Shown: one piece after another, positions 3,555 to 56,056 of the stretch
Position numbering within the stretch: the stretch's first letter is position 1
How the letters are laid out: the number at the start of each line of letters is the position of its first letter
Assembly: GCA_947173495.1 (NCBI GenBank)
Contig: CAMWFQ010000005.1
Location: forward strand, 1 to 64,000
DNA from: an uncultured Lachnospiraceae bacterium
GTDB taxonomy: Bacteria; Bacillota; Clostridia; Lachnospirales; Lachnospiraceae
Length of the DNA: 64,000 nt
Direction of reading: 5' to 3'
Position numbers and translations under genes: made by a program
The notes under the pieces: generated by a model
What the model was told of the DNA's origin: nothing
The model's input: only the letters and a program-made list of their open reading frames with translations
Databases searched by the model: none

Positions 3555-3587
3555 ATCGAGCAGGGAAGGAATCTTCCCTGCTCGATT
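3554..3587. repeat. Palindromic module B (copy 1), putative terminator of cheR
   Basis: Perfect inverted repeat with 15-base arms (AATCGAGCAGGGAAG and its complement) around a 4-base loop. The core GAGCAGGG...CCCTGCTC recurs at many gene ends in this window (module B of the mosaic repeat family). It starts at the stop codon of cheR and lies between two converging genes, so it could stop transcription from both sides, although the T-run is short. Confidence 0.8.
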
Positions 3588-14711: not shown

Positions 14712-14750
14712 AAAGGGTTACTCGCACAGCAGCGAGGAAGCCCTTTTTTT
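14712..14750 (+). terminator. Intrinsic terminator after the GH25 gene
   Basis: AAGGG-TT-CTCGC pairs with GCGAG-AAG-CCCTT around a short loop, followed by seven Ts (14744-14750). Confidence 0.85.
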
Positions 14751-21024: not shown

Positions 21025-21030
21025 AAGATA

Positions 21031-21218
21031 AACCTGAAATGTGCGACAACTCTTGTCATTTTGAACCTACAGATACTTTAAACGGGATTCCTATATCGTC
21101 AGACAGCTGCCAAGCCTCCACTCGCAAGAGGACTGCAGGGGAAGGCAAAAGTCTCGGCTGCGGTTACCCACCTGGCTTAGGCTAGGAGTCAAAAGACAGG
21201 AACCGGCATTTCGGGTTC
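21031..21218 (+). ncRNA. ssrS: 6S RNA (RNA polymerase-binding regulatory RNA)
   Basis: A non-coding stretch of about 188 bases whose ends pair (AACCTGAAATG with CATTTCGGGTT) and whose interior has features I recognise from Firmicutes 6S RNA: an ACCTACA segment, GGGATTCCTATATCG, GCCAAGCCTCC...GGAGG-like repeats, CTGCAGGGGAAGGC and GCTGCGGTTACCCACCTGGC followed by GCTAGGA. 6S RNA mimics an open promoter and sequesters the housekeeping RNA polymerase. It has its own consensus promoter and no ORF. The assignment rests on memory of the consensus and the closed overall fold. Confidence 0.75.
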
Positions 21219-21248
21219 TAAAAAAACACGCATGTGTCATAGGAAATC

Positions 21249-24855: not shown

Positions 24856-25155
24856 CAGTTGGATAGAGGAAAGGCAATGAAGGTGTTAAGTAGCGGATTA
24901 TCTTCTGACAGAGAGAGGAAGTCACCGGCTGAAAGCTTCCTTAAGTTCAGATAATTGAAACAGCAGCGAATTTCCCACCGGAGCTTTCAGGCCCAACACG
25001 GAGAGCGCTTATCAGCAGGGCTTTTTGTAAGTAGGTTTGAACGTGACACGCGTTAAGTGAATGAAGAGCCTGCCCGCAGTTTGACTGAGGCAGGAAACTG
25101 GGTGGTACCGCGGATTTGATTCGTCCCTTGTAAATGAGCAAGGGGCTTTTTCATT
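24856..25155 (+). promoter_or_regulatory. T-box riboswitch (tRNA-Phe responsive, predicted)
   Basis: Leader of about 300 bases with stem I elements (GAGAGAGGAAGTCACCGGC, GAAAGCTTCCTT), the T-box core AACTGGGTGGTACCGCG at 25096-25112, the TTCGTCCC segment, and a terminator CCCTTG/CAAGGG (25125-25144) with a T-run at 25146-25151. It binds uncharged tRNA to allow readthrough into pheST. The specifier codon should be a Phe codon; TTC at 24972-24974 (within GAATTTCCC) is my best candidate and TTC at 24986-24988 an alternative. Confidence 0.93.
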
Positions 25156-25313: not shown

Positions 25314-25397
25314 ACAAGTTTGTGTCCGCATGGCATCCGCAAGCTTGTCAGGGCCAGGCATATATGCCTGCGAAAAAAGCCGTGCAGAAATGAGGAG
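25314..25397 (+). promoter_or_regulatory. Pseudoknot-capable leader before pheS
   Basis: P1 is ACAAGTTT (25314-25321) with AAGCTTGT (25341-25348), 8 pairs including one G-U. Its loop contains CCGCATGGC (25326-25334), which can pair with GCCGTGCAG (25379-25387), directly before the shared tail AAATGAGGAG holding the Shine-Dalgarno. A small perfect hairpin AGGCATATATGCCT lies between. Same layout as the leaders of leuS, leuC, leuD and the chemoreceptor. Confidence 0.5.
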
Positions 25398-36855: not shown

Positions 36856-36889
36856 GAGGTGCTGCATATGGGGGTATGCAGCACCTTGT
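36856..36889 (+). terminator. Terminator after the EF-G-like gene
   Basis: GGTGCTGCATA pairs with TATGCAGCACC around a G-rich loop, followed by TTGTT. Confidence 0.75.
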
Positions 36890-36894
36890 TGCGC

Positions 36895-37237
36895 AGGCCC
36901 ACAAAAGGAAGTTTGCTGCTGAAGCAGCATGCGGGCCGCGCACGAGTAGTGGAGAGGTACATTCCCCTACTCGATTGCACGGGGCACCCAGAGGAGAAAT
37001 GTCAGCAGGAGCTGACGGGTGCCCGGCACGCGAGCAGGGAGAAAACCGCCCCTGCTCGATTGCATAGGCCCACAAAAGGAATTTTGCTGCTGAAGCAGCA
37101 TGCGGGCCGCGCACGAGTAGTGGAGAGGTACATTCCCCTACTCGATTGCACGGGGCACCCAGAGGAGAAATGTCAGCAGGAGCTGACGGGTGCCCGGCGC
37201 GCGAGGAGGGAGAAAACCTTCCCTACTCGATTGCACA
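36895..37237 (+). repeat. 171-bp tandem duplication of modules A-B-C-B
   Basis: Two direct copies, 36896-37066 and 37067-37237, differ at only a few positions. Each contains module A (GGCCCACA...TGCGGGCC with inner GCTGCT/AGCAGC), module B in a GAGTAG/CTACTC version, module C (GGGCACCC...GGGTGCCC with inner GTCAGC/GCTGAC), and a second module B. The period equals 57 codons, so any open frame entering the first copy stays open through both. This fills the 464-base gap between the EF-G-like gene and the next real start. Confidence 0.9.
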
Positions 37238-38985: not shown

Positions 38986-39056
38986 CCTGTGCGTGCGCGG
39001 AACGGCACAGGAAGACCAAAAGCAGGATATGAAAAGCGCCGCGCAGAAATGAGGAG
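38986..39056 (+). promoter_or_regulatory. Pseudoknot-capable leader before leuS
   Basis: P1 is CCTGTGC (38986-38992) with GCACAGG (39005-39011). The loop holds TGCGCGG (38994-39000), fully complementary to CCGCGCA (39039-39045), which is followed by the shared tail GAAATGAGGAG with the Shine-Dalgarno. The two pairings cross, so they form a pseudoknot or exclude one another. No T-box sequence is present before leuS. Confidence 0.55.
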
Positions 39057-52057: not shown

Positions 52058-52178
52058 TTGACGATGAAAGATTGAAAATTATAGTTTTCAATCGCGAGAT
52101 TTGTGCCTGCGCGTTGCTTGACACAAACTTGTTAAGCATAGCTTTGCGCAACAAAGCAGCGCAGAAATGGAGTAAAAT
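52058..52178 (+). promoter_or_regulatory. Leader element L1 before the chemoreceptor gene
   Basis: First of three near-identical elements. A 5-prime hairpin GATTGAAAA/TTTTCAATC (52070-52093) is followed by P1 TTTGTG/CACAAA (52100-52127). The P1 loop CTGCGC.TGCTT pairs with AAGCA.GCGCAG (52154-52164), directly before AAATGGAG. Base changes in the first hairpin create TATAGT (52080-52085), 16 bases from TTGACG (52058-52063), a possible promoter absent from the other copies. The element's ATG (52179) opens a 14-codon frame ending ATGA at the receptor start. The rest of the 325-base gap after ilvC holds only the ilvC terminator and AT-rich sequence. Confidence 0.6.
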
Positions 52179-52219
52179 ATGATACTCCCTCAAAAAAAGA
52201 AAGAAAGAGAGGATCAGAG

Positions 52220-54223
52220 ATGAGCCAGACAAAAGTGACAAAGCCTGAAAGGAAAGGTTCAAGGCGGCGGGGGCTTGGGATCACGGTGAAATTAGTGGCG
52301 GCAGTTGTTGTAAGCGCGGTTATAGCTGTATCAGCCCTTCTGGCAGTAGTATATGACCGGATGTCACAGACACTGTTGGAGAAGAGCGAAGAAATACTGC
52401 ATACCACTACCGACAAGACACTTCAGGAGACAAAGGCGTGGATGAACAGAACGCTTACCATGTTGGAAACCCAGAGAGATACCATAGAGTATGAGGATAT
52501 GAAAGTGCCTGAAATGACAGAATATATCAGGCATACAGCCGGTCAGAACGACGCTTATCCGGCCGGGCTTTATGTAGCGCTGACGGACGGATCTCTGTAT
52601 CATGCTTCTTTCGTACCGGGGCCGGAGTTTAATGCGCTGGTAAAAAGCTGGTATCTGGATGGACTGGATTCGGAAGCGTTTATACTGGGAGATGTTTATT
52701 TTGATGAGGACAGTCAATCTTATGTGGTGGGCGCATCCGGCGTACTGAAGGACAGAAACGGTACGGTACGGGGTGTTGCGGCAGCGGATGTATATCTGGA
52801 TTCTATTTCCGATATTGTCAGCAATATTCAGATTGAGGATACGGGCGGCATTTTTCTGGTTGATACACGAACAGATACGATTATCGGACACAGGGACGAG
52901 GAGATTGTCGGACAAAAGCTGAGCGAAGCCGATGGAATGTATGCTTATGCAGAGGAGCAGATACAGGCCGGAAATATGGGGATTGGCCTGTATGAGGATA
53001 CTTACATTGAGATTGCCGAGGTTGAAGGAAGCAGCTGGATAGCGGTAGCTTATGTGTCCAGGGCAGAGGTGCTGGCGGAACTTTATGATCTGACACGTAT
53101 CATGGTGGGAGTATCGATTATAGCGGTGCTGTTTCTCACTGTTCTTGTCGTGATCCAGATCAGGAGAATCATCGGCAGGCCGGTAAAGGAACTGAGTAAG
53201 GCTGCGACTCTGATTGCAGAGGGGGAACTGAACCAGACCATTCGTTACAGTTCCAGAGACGAGCTGGGCGTTCTGGCAGATGACTTTAATCAGGTTACTA
53301 TGAGATTACGTGATTACATAAAATATATCAATGAAATTTCAGATACCCTGCGGGAGATAGCCAGGGGAAATCTGGCATATGAACTGAAGAGTGAATATGC
53401 CGGTGAATTTGCAAAGATTAAAGAATCTCTGGAAGCAATTTCGGTTGAACTTAATATTACTATGGGTCAGCTGCGCGCCTCTTCGAGAGATGTTGCCGCC
53501 GGTGCGGCTCAGATTTCTGACAGTGCGGTGAGTCTGTCCCAGGGATCCACAGAGCAGGCGGCGGAGGTGGATGCGCTGGCCGGACATATTGGAAAGGTGT
53601 CCGACAGTGTACAGAAGATTGCTCAGGGAGCACAGAGGGCCAGCGGAATTTCAAAAGAGGTCGGAAAAGGGCTTTTAGAGAGCAATACAAAGATGCAGAA
53701 TATGACCGAGGTGATGCAGAAGATCAGCGAAAAATCCAATGCAATTCATAAGATTGTAAAAACCATTGACGATATTGCATTCCAGACGAATATTCTTGCG
53801 CTGAATGCGGCAGTGGAAGCAGCCAGGGCAGGTGAGGCGGGAAAAGGTTTTGCAGTAGTGGCGGAGGAGGTCCGGACACTGGCAGGCAAGACCGCCGACG
53901 CCGCCAGGGAGACGACAGAACTCCTGGGAGAAACGATAGGCTCTATGGAAGAAGGGGTAAGCGCGGCCGACGATACAGCCGAATCTATGCTGACAGCAGC
54001 GAAGTTGGCGGAGGAAATGGACAGCCTGATAGGCGGAATCGCAGATTATACAGCGCAGCAGGCGACCGCAGCAGAAGAAATCAGCCATGGAATTGATCAG
54101 ATTGCGATTGTTGTCCAGAGCAATGTAAGTACAGCAGAATCCAGTGCCGCTGCCAGTGAGGAGCTGTCCGGCCAGGCCAATGCGCTGAAAGAACTGGTAT
54201 CAAGATTCCAGCTGAAGGCATGA
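52220..54223 (+). CDS. Methyl-accepting chemotaxis protein (dCACHE-type receptor)
   Basis: 667-residue transmembrane chemoreceptor: basic N-terminus, helix at about 22-46, periplasmic-type double CACHE ligand domain (about 50-285, with [19 protein letters not shown] and [20 protein letters not shown]), helix at about 292-313, HAMP (about 315-367), and the signalling hairpin with the conserved tip [40 protein letters not shown]. dCACHE domains often bind amino acids; its place between ilvC and leuC suggests, but does not show, an amino-acid ligand. No C-terminal pentapeptide tether. The start overlaps a 14-codon upstream frame (ATGA). Confidence 0.92.
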
Positions 54224-54455: not shown

Positions 54456-54532
54456 CAAACAGAGCTTATACGAAAAGGGCGTCGGAAGGTTTTTGAGTAT
54501 CCGCCGCCGGAATATTTTTGCAGGAGGAGATA

Positions 54533-54645
54533 AGATTGAAAATTAAAATTTTCAATCGCGAGATTTGTGTCTGCGCGTTGCTTGTCACAAACTCGTTAAG
54601 CCATTCATGGCTTTGCGCAACAAAGCAGCGCAGAAATGGAGTAAA
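54533..54645 (+). promoter_or_regulatory. Leader element L2 before leuC
   Basis: GATTGAAAAT/ATTTTCAATC hairpin (54534-54557), P1 TTTGTG (54564-54569) with CACAAA (54586-54591), internal hairpin AAGCCAT/ATGGCTT (54598-54613). The P1-loop sequence TCTGCGC.TGCTT (54570-54583) pairs with AAGCA.GCGCAGA (54623-54634), directly before AATGGAG. An AGGAGG at 54522-54527 lies 8 bases before a TTG that would open a small leader frame, and is displaced 120 bases from the leuC ATG. Confidence 0.65.
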
Positions 54646-54647
54646 TT

Positions 54648-55910
54648 ATGGGAATGACAATGACCCAGAAAATACTGGCGGCACATGCAGGGCTTGCGTC
54701 TGTGGAAGCCGGACAGCTGATTGAGGCGGATTTGGATCTGGTTCTCGGAAATGATATTACAAGCCCGGTGGCGATCAAAGAAATGGAAAAAATGAAAGGA
54801 AAGGGTGTGTTTGATAAGGATAAGATCGCGCTTGTCCCGGATCATTTTGTGCCTAACAAAGATATTAAGTCCGCCGAGCATTGCAAGTGTCTGAGGGAGT
54901 TTGCACGCCGCAATGAGATTACCAATTATTTTGAAGTGGGTGAGATGGGAATTGAACATGCCCTGCTTCCCGAAAAAGGACTGACTGTGGCGGGAGATGT
55001 GGTGATTGGCGCAGATTCTCATACCTGTACCTATGGTGCGCTGGGGGCATTCTCGACAGGAGTGGGAAGTACGGATATGGCCGCCGGTATGGCTACCGGA
55101 AAGGCATGGTTTAAGGTTCCCGGAGCCATTCGGTTTCATCTGACGGGAAAACCTTCTAAATGGGTCAGCGGCAAAGATGTGATTCTGCATATTATCGGCA
55201 GGATCGGCGTGGACGGGGCTTTATATAAATCTATGGAATTTACCGGGGATGGCATACAGAATCTCTCTATGGATGACCGTTTTACCATAGCGAACATGGC
55301 CATCGAAGCGGGCGGAAAGAACGGCATTTTCCCGGTGGATGATCTGGCCGTTGCTTATATGAAGGAGCATTCAAAGAAAGAATTTAAAATTTATGAAGCG
55401 GATGAGGATGCAGTTTATGATGAAGAGTATACCATTGACTTAAGTAGTCTGCGGCCTACCATTGCATTTCCGCATCTTCCGGAGAATACCAAAACGATTG
55501 ATGAGATCAGAGAAGAAGTCCGGATCGACCAGGTAGTGATCGGCTCCTGCACCAACGGAAGGATGGATGATATGCGTATCGCTGCGGAGGTTTTGAAGGG
55601 ACGTCATGTAGCCGGAGGAATGCGCTGTATCGTGATTCCGGCAACCCAGGCTGTCTATATGCAGGCCATGGAAGAAGGACTTCTTAAGATCTTTATCGAG
55701 GCAGGCGCTGTGGTCAGCACGCCTACCTGTGGTCCCTGTCTGGGCGGATATATGGGAATATTAGCAGAGGGCGAGCGCTGCGTTTCAACGACAAACCGTA
55801 ATTTCGTGGGACGTATGGGCCATGTGGGTTCAGAGGTTTATCTGGCGAGCCCGGCAGTTGCGGCGGCAAGTGCTGTCACAGGCAGGATCTCCAGTCCGGA
55901 GCAGTTATAA
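54648..55910 (+). CDS. leuC: 3-isopropylmalate dehydratase large subunit
   Basis: Aconitase-family enzyme with a [4Fe-4S] cluster that isomerises 2- to 3-isopropylmalate in leucine synthesis. 420 residues, the shorter large-subunit type shared with archaea and Clostridia. Cluster cysteines are in [11 protein letters not shown] and [13 protein letters not shown]; other signatures are [24 protein letters not shown] and [24 protein letters not shown]. Translation starts at 54648 using GGAG supplied by element L2. leuD follows after 148 bases, most of them element L3. Confidence 0.94.
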
Positions 55911-55926
55911 ACATTCAGGAGGTAAA

Positions 55927-56056
55927 AGATTGAAAATTAAAATTTTCAATCGCGAGATTTGTGTCTGCGCGTTGCTTGACACAAACTTGTTAAGCTATTA
56001 TATGCTTTAGTCATATAATGGTTTTGCGCAATAAAGCAGCGCAGAAATGGAGTAAA
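55927..56056 (+). promoter_or_regulatory. Leader element L3 between leuC and leuD
   Basis: Third copy, with the best P1: TTTGTGTC (55958-55965) and GACACAAA (55978-55985), whose 12-base loop TGCGCGTTGCTT pairs with AAGCAGCGCA (56034-56043) just before GAAATGGAG. The internal hairpin is longer than in L2 (AAGCTATTATATG with CATATAATGGTTT, including G-U pairs). AGGAGG at 55917-55922 lies 7 bases before a TTG (55930) that opens a 26-codon frame containing five Leu codons and ending at 56010; it is displaced about 135 bases from the leuD ATG. Confidence 0.65.

Follow-up and report, generated by a model that had tools for sequence, protein, structure and literature searches.

The five leaders that precede pheS, leuS, a chemoreceptor gene, leuC and leuD in the 64,000-nucleotide stretch of DNA analysed here (the window) belong, on the evidence of sequence, to a dispersed Lachnospiraceae RNA element. 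Its core is predicted to be an H-type pseudoknot, formed by a hairpin, P1, and a crossing helix, P2, between the P1 loop and the bases preceding a tail; the core is followed by this tail, GCAGAAAUGRGG, which carries a Shine-Dalgarno sequence (SD). In our judgement the element is probably a mobile translation-initiation cassette, which inserts in the interval between SD and start codon and replaces the SD.

Read directly from the sequence, the five leaders lie where a preliminary description had placed them and follow the plan that it gave, and P1 and P2 pair in all five, as it had claimed. P2 is GCATGGC/GCCGTGC in the pheS leader, TGCGCGG/CCGCGCA in the leuS leader and CTGCGC(GT)TGCTT/AAGCAGCGCAG in the chemoreceptor, leuC and leuD leaders. 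These last three are near copies of one sequence, and pheS and leuS have the same plan in other letters. The idea of one RNA family, with crossing helices that change yet stay paired and an SD in a common tail, stands. The extents need revision, since in three of the five places the full element begins earlier, with AAGA-TTG and a further hairpin, H0 (at 54532 for leuC). The chemoreceptor leader is present as described, but it directly precedes a 14-codon ORF at 52179, and the chemoreceptor start is at 52220. Pfam identifies the five downstream genes as a Phe-tRNA synthetase, a Leu-tRNA synthetase, an MCP and two aconitase-family proteins, calls that fit PheS, LeuS, a chemoreceptor, LeuC and LeuD. 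The copies and their parts are as follows.

25314 to 25397, plus strand: pheS copy, H0-less and sequence-divergent (P1 25314-25348; P2 25328-25334 with 25379-25385; tail 25386-25397; ATG 25403)
38986 to 39056, plus strand: leuS copy, H0-less and the most divergent (P1 38986-39011; P2 38994-39000 with 39039-39045; tail 39046-39056; ATG 39059)
52068 to 52176, plus strand: full element of the 14-codon ORF and chemoreceptor (P1 52095-52131; P2 52107-52119 with 52154-52164; tail 52165-52172; ATG 52179)
54522 to 54527, plus strand: native SD AGGAGG of leuC, upstream of the element; the empty site in relative G001 reads 'tttttgcAGGAGGTAAAAATCATGGGAATGACA'
54532 to 54645, plus strand: full leuC element, AAGATTG ... 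GCAGAAATGGAGTAAA
54534 to 54557, plus strand: H0 hairpin of the leuC copy, with TTG (54536-54538) at the leader start-codon position
54559 to 54595, plus strand: P1 hairpin of the leuC copy, CGAG-A-TTTGTG (54559-54569) with CACAAACTCG (54586-54595)
54571 to 54583, plus strand: P2 5' strand of the leuC copy within the P1 loop, CTGCGC gt TGCTT
54598 to 54613, plus strand: small L3 hairpin of the leuC copy, AAGCCATTCATGGCTT
54623 to 54633, plus strand: P2 3' strand of the leuC copy, AAGCAGCGCAG
54634 to 54641, plus strand: tail of the leuC copy, AAATGGAG, including the element's SD; leuC ATG at 54648
55917 to 55922, plus strand: native SD AGGAGG of leuD, upstream of the element
55926 to 56056, plus strand: full leuD element (P1 55953-55989; P2 55965-55977 with 56034-56044; tail 56045-56052; ATG 56059)

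No clear native SD was seen upstream of the chemoreceptor copy. The tail pattern CAGAAATGN{0,3}GAG occurs five times in the window (shuffle mean 0.32; 0 of 100 shuffles reach five), and GCAGAAATGN{0,3}GAG occurs 59 times in the 4.58-Mb genome against three times for the backwards pattern; on reading, a minority of the 59 are chance strings within genes or bare tails. The layout of the repeat is an AAGA-NTG hairpin (H0), P1, small hairpins, the P2 3' strand and the tail. The small L3 hairpin is a module present zero to four times per copy in this genome, and some copies lack part of their 5' side. A covariance model trained on 31 of the genome's own copies gives 126 matches there at E≤1. It scores the five leaders at 101.1, 96.8, 89.3, 52.4 and 37.0 bits, against 11.4 bits for the next best place in the window, values that are not independent because the leaders belong to the training set. 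The model search found over 100 further hits before genes, as the preliminary description had required of such a family. The whole-genome run scored 150 of 1788 candidates and missed the leuS copy, so that genome counts are lower bounds; own copies left unread are those at C28, C27:18842, C36:10898, C48 and C51. Many near-identical copies at unrelated loci are what defines a small interspersed repeat, and that is what we find.

Within the genus, 25 of 37 genomes have a match at E≤0.01, and copy number ranges from 0 to 107: the own genome has 107 copies, three others have 59, 53 and 26, and 12 of the 37 have none. Under stricter filters, seven of 295 genomes of the order match at E≤0.001, the own genome included, in six genera. 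A pattern scan of named genomes returned at least 112 stretches; among the 80 matches listed, most carry the name of Lachnospiraceae or its genera (including Parablautia intestinalis and P. muri), some are labelled just Clostridium sp. or Bacterium, and one is a MAG labelled Ruminococcaceae. On plasmid or phage carriage, an idea that was set aside, a search with one 109-nt own copy gave no match in plasmids and ten in a phage collection, all on unannotated human faecal scaffolds, and the downstream ORFs, read in four of these ten, were taken by eye as bacterial. IMG/VR contains one exact-pattern match, before an unannotated 333-aa ORF (within the sequence examined).

Covariation, which the preliminary description had named as a check, is present in a larger alignment, as judged by shuffle and slide controls and not by R-scape. 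When the 31 own copies were first aligned, pairing held in 92.3% of cells, and seven pairs showed both-side changes against a mean of 2.3 in shuffles that ignore relatedness (0 of 500). A multi-species alignment placed 186 of 200 copies by P1 pairing, P2 playing no part, and dropped 14 (ten for P1, four for the tail); the pairing tables comprise 49 distinct short-loop and 45 distinct long-loop copies, 28 with other loop lengths being left out. In the short-loop copies, which come from several species, 90.0% of P2 cells are paired versus 9.8-47.2% when slid. One P2 pair occurs in T-A, G-C and A-T forms, with 18 both-side changes, and is paired in 40 of 49 copies, a number reached in 0 of 1000 shuffles (mean 21.4; relatedness ignored). 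Another takes G-C and A-T forms (17 of 1000 shuffles; relatedness again ignored), and P2 pairs 0, 3, 5 and 7 have no both-side change in the short-loop table. At each of its six pairs P1 is paired in 47-49 of the 49 copies, a percentage that is partly by construction, as copies were placed by P1, and five of the six show both-side changes.

Two crossing, covarying helices are clear in the short-loop copies and weak for the long-loop P2. Across the 45 distinct long-loop copies, pairing reaches 80-89% in the six P2 columns, with both-side changes so few that the covariation is weak. The long-loop type accounts for 83 of the 186 usable copies and differs from the short type in its P1 loop and L2. 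The short type has conserved loop bases: a U in L1 (45/49), a U in L2 (44/49) and the AAA in which the third loop, L3, ends (45-48/49). The AAA following P2 is invariant in the 49 short-loop copies, copies without it having been dropped beforehand (4 of 200). The SD lies outside P2, 4-5 nt behind it.

Folding estimates of -10.9 to -14.3 kcal/mol for P2 alone and -6.1 to -12.8 kcal/mol for P1 pieces, loop costs excluded, suggest that the pseudoknot should be stable. If only nested pairs are allowed, the leuC and leuS leaders keep P2 and lose P1, and in the chemoreceptor and leuD leaders a local hairpin takes the place of P2; the SD of the chemoreceptor leader is then paired with bases downstream of it (unpaired probability 0.00-0.03). 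The crossing helices had been read as either a pseudoknot or a two-state switch. Of these, the pseudoknot is the conserved feature, and the data do not support a switch as a general property. Of the 157 distinct copies, 66 have the alternative local hairpin, of five Watson-Crick pairs, where L3 shuffles would give about 4.5. Among the 43 copies with a P2 3' core other than GCGCA, just 3 retain it, which argues that it is not a conserved second state, and an obligate two-state switch was rejected on this ground.

For the placement of the copies, the set comprised 113 places with E up to about 0.01, the leuS copy being added by hand, and 111 were evaluable. In 101 of these an ORF of at least 50 aa starts 0-13 nt past the tail, 75 at exactly 6 nt. 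Among the ten that do not fit are degenerate copies, copies in front of short ORFs, one with a second copy behind it and one whose ORF begins 24-25 nt on. The same holds in other species, where 80 of 89 copies lie 0-13 nt before an ORF (47 at 6 nt and 24 at 5 nt). On the reverse strand 38 of 110 are open for at least 20 aa, which is not a matched control. The spacer behind the tail is conserved at positions 3-4 (1.74 and 1.55 bits) and less so at positions 1-2 (0.52 and 0.76) and 5-6 (0.38 and 0.40), after which the start codon follows.

At the left edge AAGA hardly varies among the 55 copies scored, and G and A abound in the flank at -6 to -12. Among the 83 copies with H0, the start-like codon is TTG in 59, GTG in 21 and CTG in 3, and GGAG or GAGG stands at -16 to -4 of this NTG in 57 (against 3 of 79 in the next upstream window) and is absent in 26. 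By our scoring rule, which misses some, 116 of 199 copies are without H0. With GGAG or GAGG upstream and an ORF start downstream, the element lies between the native SD and the start codon wherever the native SD is visible. Pairing of the tails with the anti-SD is estimated at -9.3 to -10.2 kcal/mol in two blocks, using an assumed 16S end. The assumed pattern was not found in the own genome or the seven relatives searched, so that extended anti-SD pairing stays a lead.

The copies are lineage-specific, a point that the preliminary description had missed: readable relatives are without the element at the leuC, leuD and pheS orthologues. It is found in none of the 24 readable relatives (of 29) at leuC, none of 23 at leuD and none of 20 (of 21) at pheS, so that even the sequence-divergent pheS copy is absent there. 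Two leuC/leuD starts in relatives hold the bare string GCAGAAAGG, to which the model gives no score. For trpB (a tentative name, given, like trxB, purA, guaA, secE, hom and carB, by eye from the N-terminus), 21 of 23 relatives are readable: 19 have no element, G007 has a different copy and G060 a weak one (model E 0.003). A model search of 76 loci, own included, at E≤0.01 returned the own copies, the trpB copies of G007 and G060 and one copy at the pheS locus of G007, which by an N-terminus read by eye lies before pheT. The trpB start reads ACACAGAAACGAGGTATGAAA-ATGACAAATCC in the near relative G012 and ACACAGAAAAGAGGTTAT, the element and ATGACAAATCC in the own genome; by eye the G012 flank is itself like an old element tail. 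Nesting occurs in 4 of 110 own copies, which follow directly on a tail resembling another copy's. The trxB copies of G021 and G023 have common flanks and one different L3 hairpin (by eye). L3 hairpins specific to single species point to separate amplification. No target-site duplication was seen by eye at leuC, leuD or trpB, and H0 is a palindrome at the 5' side only.

We infer that insertion is the cause of the pattern established by sequence comparison, namely the repeat family, its covarying short-loop pseudoknot, its placement and the empty sites. In this scenario, a cassette of about 60-140 nt would come to lie between a gene's own SD and its start codon and would supply a replacement ribosome-binding site. 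In the mRNA the P1 loop would pair with the bases before the tail (P2), giving an H-type pseudoknot with an A-rich third loop, whose end would lie 4-5 nt before the SD, itself about 6 nt before the start codon. Action would most likely be at initiation, where the pseudoknot may wall the SD off from upstream sequence and AGAAAU(G)RGG would be presented to the 30S subunit. With its SD shielded and presented in this way, the gene would stay translated after insertion and depend less on its old context. As an alternative to shielding, the pseudoknot could serve as a standby platform, like that of tisB; we suspect either an insulating or a standby effect. In copies with H0 the old native SD would face the NTG of H0, and that NTG may serve as the start of a short leader ORF running through the element, though not as a general rule.

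Dispersed repeats are normally viewed as junk excluded from genes. This element is found almost only between SD and start codon, where insertion should stop translation, and it brings the part that sustains translation. We know of no mobile element that targets the interval between SD and start codon and of no mobile ribosome-binding site. Literature queries, most of which covered part of the matching literature, returned no description of the element. The cassette would be a natural portable insulator of ribosome-binding sites and a route by which many genes gain the same 5' leader at once. It raises the questions of how a small element could be targeted to translation starts and what role a pseudoknot abutting the SD has in initiation. 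More tentatively, and with some doubt on our part, the element could home to start sites: a dedicated mechanism would recognise initiation regions by their SD and start codon, at the level of DNA or mRNA, and place the pseudoknotted cassette between the two in a fixed orientation, so that unrelated genes would come to share one network under pseudoknot control of translation.

No mobilising enzyme was found among the candidates looked at, PF01797 and reverse transcriptases. Mobilisation of the REP/IS200-IS605 kind was rejected, the Y1 transposase domain PF01797 having no match at E≤1e-10 in the own genome (107 copies; assembly 97.41% complete). Reverse-transcriptase mobilisation was also rejected: the own genome has two reverse transcriptases, and by eye their occurrence does not track copy number consistently through the genus. 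The two are encoded on the minus strand. At L378 (G000:C5:209800-215000) a 935-aa ORF with a reverse transcriptase and a TOTE-type primase domain adjoins Cas1, and at L377 (G000:C12:104300-107300) there is a 418-aa reverse-transcriptase ORF that open frames of equal length match in G012 and G028.

The proteins encoded downstream are of many kinds. Among 30 of the 96, taken as a systematic sample, Pfam finds aminoacyl-tRNA synthetases, purine genes, ArgR and MarR regulators, ABC transporter parts, glycosidases, peptidases, a c-di-AMP receptor, a rhodanese and others, with four proteins without a match at E≤1e-6. The Leu/Phe theme suggested by the preliminary description is therefore a coincidence of the window. 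An amino-acid or purine regulon was likewise set aside on gene diversity, though purine and amino-acid genes recur across species. Nor are the sampled genes those of one pathway, as they would be behind a riboswitch.

Three other explanations account for part of these data. The pseudoknot could bind a protein or small ligand that opens or closes the SD, so that about 100 genes answer to one signal, in the manner of a riboswitch or of the gp32 and S15 operators. The conserved loop bases of the short type (L1 U, L2 AUC, L3 AAA) are what a ligand site would show, the distance from P2 to SD to start codon is near-fixed, and copies occur in more than one species at trpB, purC, trxB, a LysR gene and a response regulator (N-termini by eye). 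We nevertheless find such a regulon rather unlikely, given that the 30 sampled proteins have no functional theme, that the 83 long-loop copies among the 186 usable ones have a P1 loop and an L2 of another kind, and that species of one genus differ between 0 and 107 copies. That the element is a plain parasitic repeat, similar to a MITE or BOX, whose structure serves its own mobility and is merely tolerated by translation, is unlikely in our view, even though near-identical dispersed copies, species-specific bursts and nesting are typical of such repeats and pneumococcus has small repeats with variable internal modules (PMC3049150). Against a parasite speaks the scarcity of copies in neutral places, with 101 of the 111 own copies lying directly at an ORF start in sense orientation. 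A parasite would also have little use for P2, a covarying helix that bridges a loop and a remote strand; terminal inverted repeats require neither.

Translational attenuation, by which ribosomes from the native SD would start at the H0 NTG, translate into P1 and P2 and so control reinitiation at the main start, seems to us quite improbable. It draws on the NTG in H0 (TTG 59, GTG 21 and CTG 3 of 83) with GGAG or GAGG upstream in 57 of 83, and on a leader frame that in 32 of the 52 copies scored meets no stop before the main start, versus 0 and 2 in the other frames. This frame comparison is weak because NTGA by itself brings a stop in frame +1 and the copies are related to one another. Moreover, 20 of the 52 leaders stop before the main start, the frame relative to the main gene is mixed (24, 15 and 13), the TTG and GTG subfamilies read the peptide in different frames, and many copies, those of pheS and leuS included, have no H0. 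The leader frame is open and continues in frame into the downstream gene in eight copies (L113, L090, L054, L128, L136, L092, L088 and L032), where a TTG start would add an element-encoded N-terminus.

Among known systems, translational riboswitches of the preQ1 and SAM-II type place an H-type pseudoknot, its third loop A-rich, beside the SD. The element is like them in this architecture, but its SD is outside P2, it has no metabolite gene theme, it is dispersed in more than 100 copies and it matches nothing in Rfam. The preliminary description had not recognised a known RNA class, and a search of the whole window with Rfam 15 at E≤1 agrees, giving no match to a known family, T-box included, at the five leaders. 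At 19 further loci of the own and other species, the same collection and threshold give no sense match at any element. The two matches in that run are both below the gathering score and on the other strand; a U4 match of 24.7 bits, below its cut-off of 46, overlaps the L063 copy in antisense.

The BOX, RUP and SPRITE repeats of pneumococcus are dispersed, structured when transcribed and inserted into one another, and BOX has an internal module in variable number (PMC3049150, PMC10969869). Our element resembles them in being dispersed and structured, with a variable L3 module and nested copies. As described there, BOX is over-represented between convergent genes (16 there versus 70 upstream of a CDS, P 0.0017), and ORFs tested in large BOX elements were without good SD candidates (PMC3049150). 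Compared with that description of BOX, the element is nearly always in sense before a start codon, carries an SD and has a covarying crossing helix; with 101 of 111 own copies before an ORF start, it has no such enrichment between convergent genes. The element is a small interspersed repeat that lacks the placement of BOX, fails the Y1-transposase test for REP/IS200 in its own genome and matches no Rfam class.

In T4 gene 32 and in rpsO (S15), a pseudoknot close to the ribosome-binding site forms part of a translational operator; that of gene 32 lies 67 nt upstream of the initiation codon (PMC3014915). Those operators serve autoregulation of a single gene by a known protein, whereas our element is a repeat family that is not known to have a binder. 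For tisB, PMC7708055 describes a standby-site pseudoknot needed for binding of 30S and S1 to a structured leader. There the ribosome-binding site is sequestered, with a single-stranded standby region 100 nt upstream at one locus, and our element is a repeat. A set of 250 mobile or repeat candidates has been described, and the string Lachnospir is absent from the main text (PMC11109978). The small interspersed repeat as a kind is already known; what appears to be new is one that carries an SD and a covarying pseudoknot and sits at start codons.

The window contains several other features of interest. Rfam 15 places a T-box at 24868-25131, upstream of the pheS copy, so that at pheS a T-box is followed by what may be a translational leader, and a 6S RNA at 21028-21221. 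A second interspersed repeat, AGGCCCACAAAAGGAAGTTTGCTGCTGAAGCAGCATGTGGGCCGC, has four window copies, at 14746, 36886, 37057 and 62017, and positions 36889-37230 are a tandem duplication of 171 nt that is 95% identical. A palindromic repeat, CGAGCAGGGAA...TTCCCTGCTCG, has window copies at 3557, 14804, 21393, 25272, 37031, 37202 and 43905. By eye, sequence like it lies upstream of pheS in some relatives and upstream of the pseudoknot copy at C4:73557.
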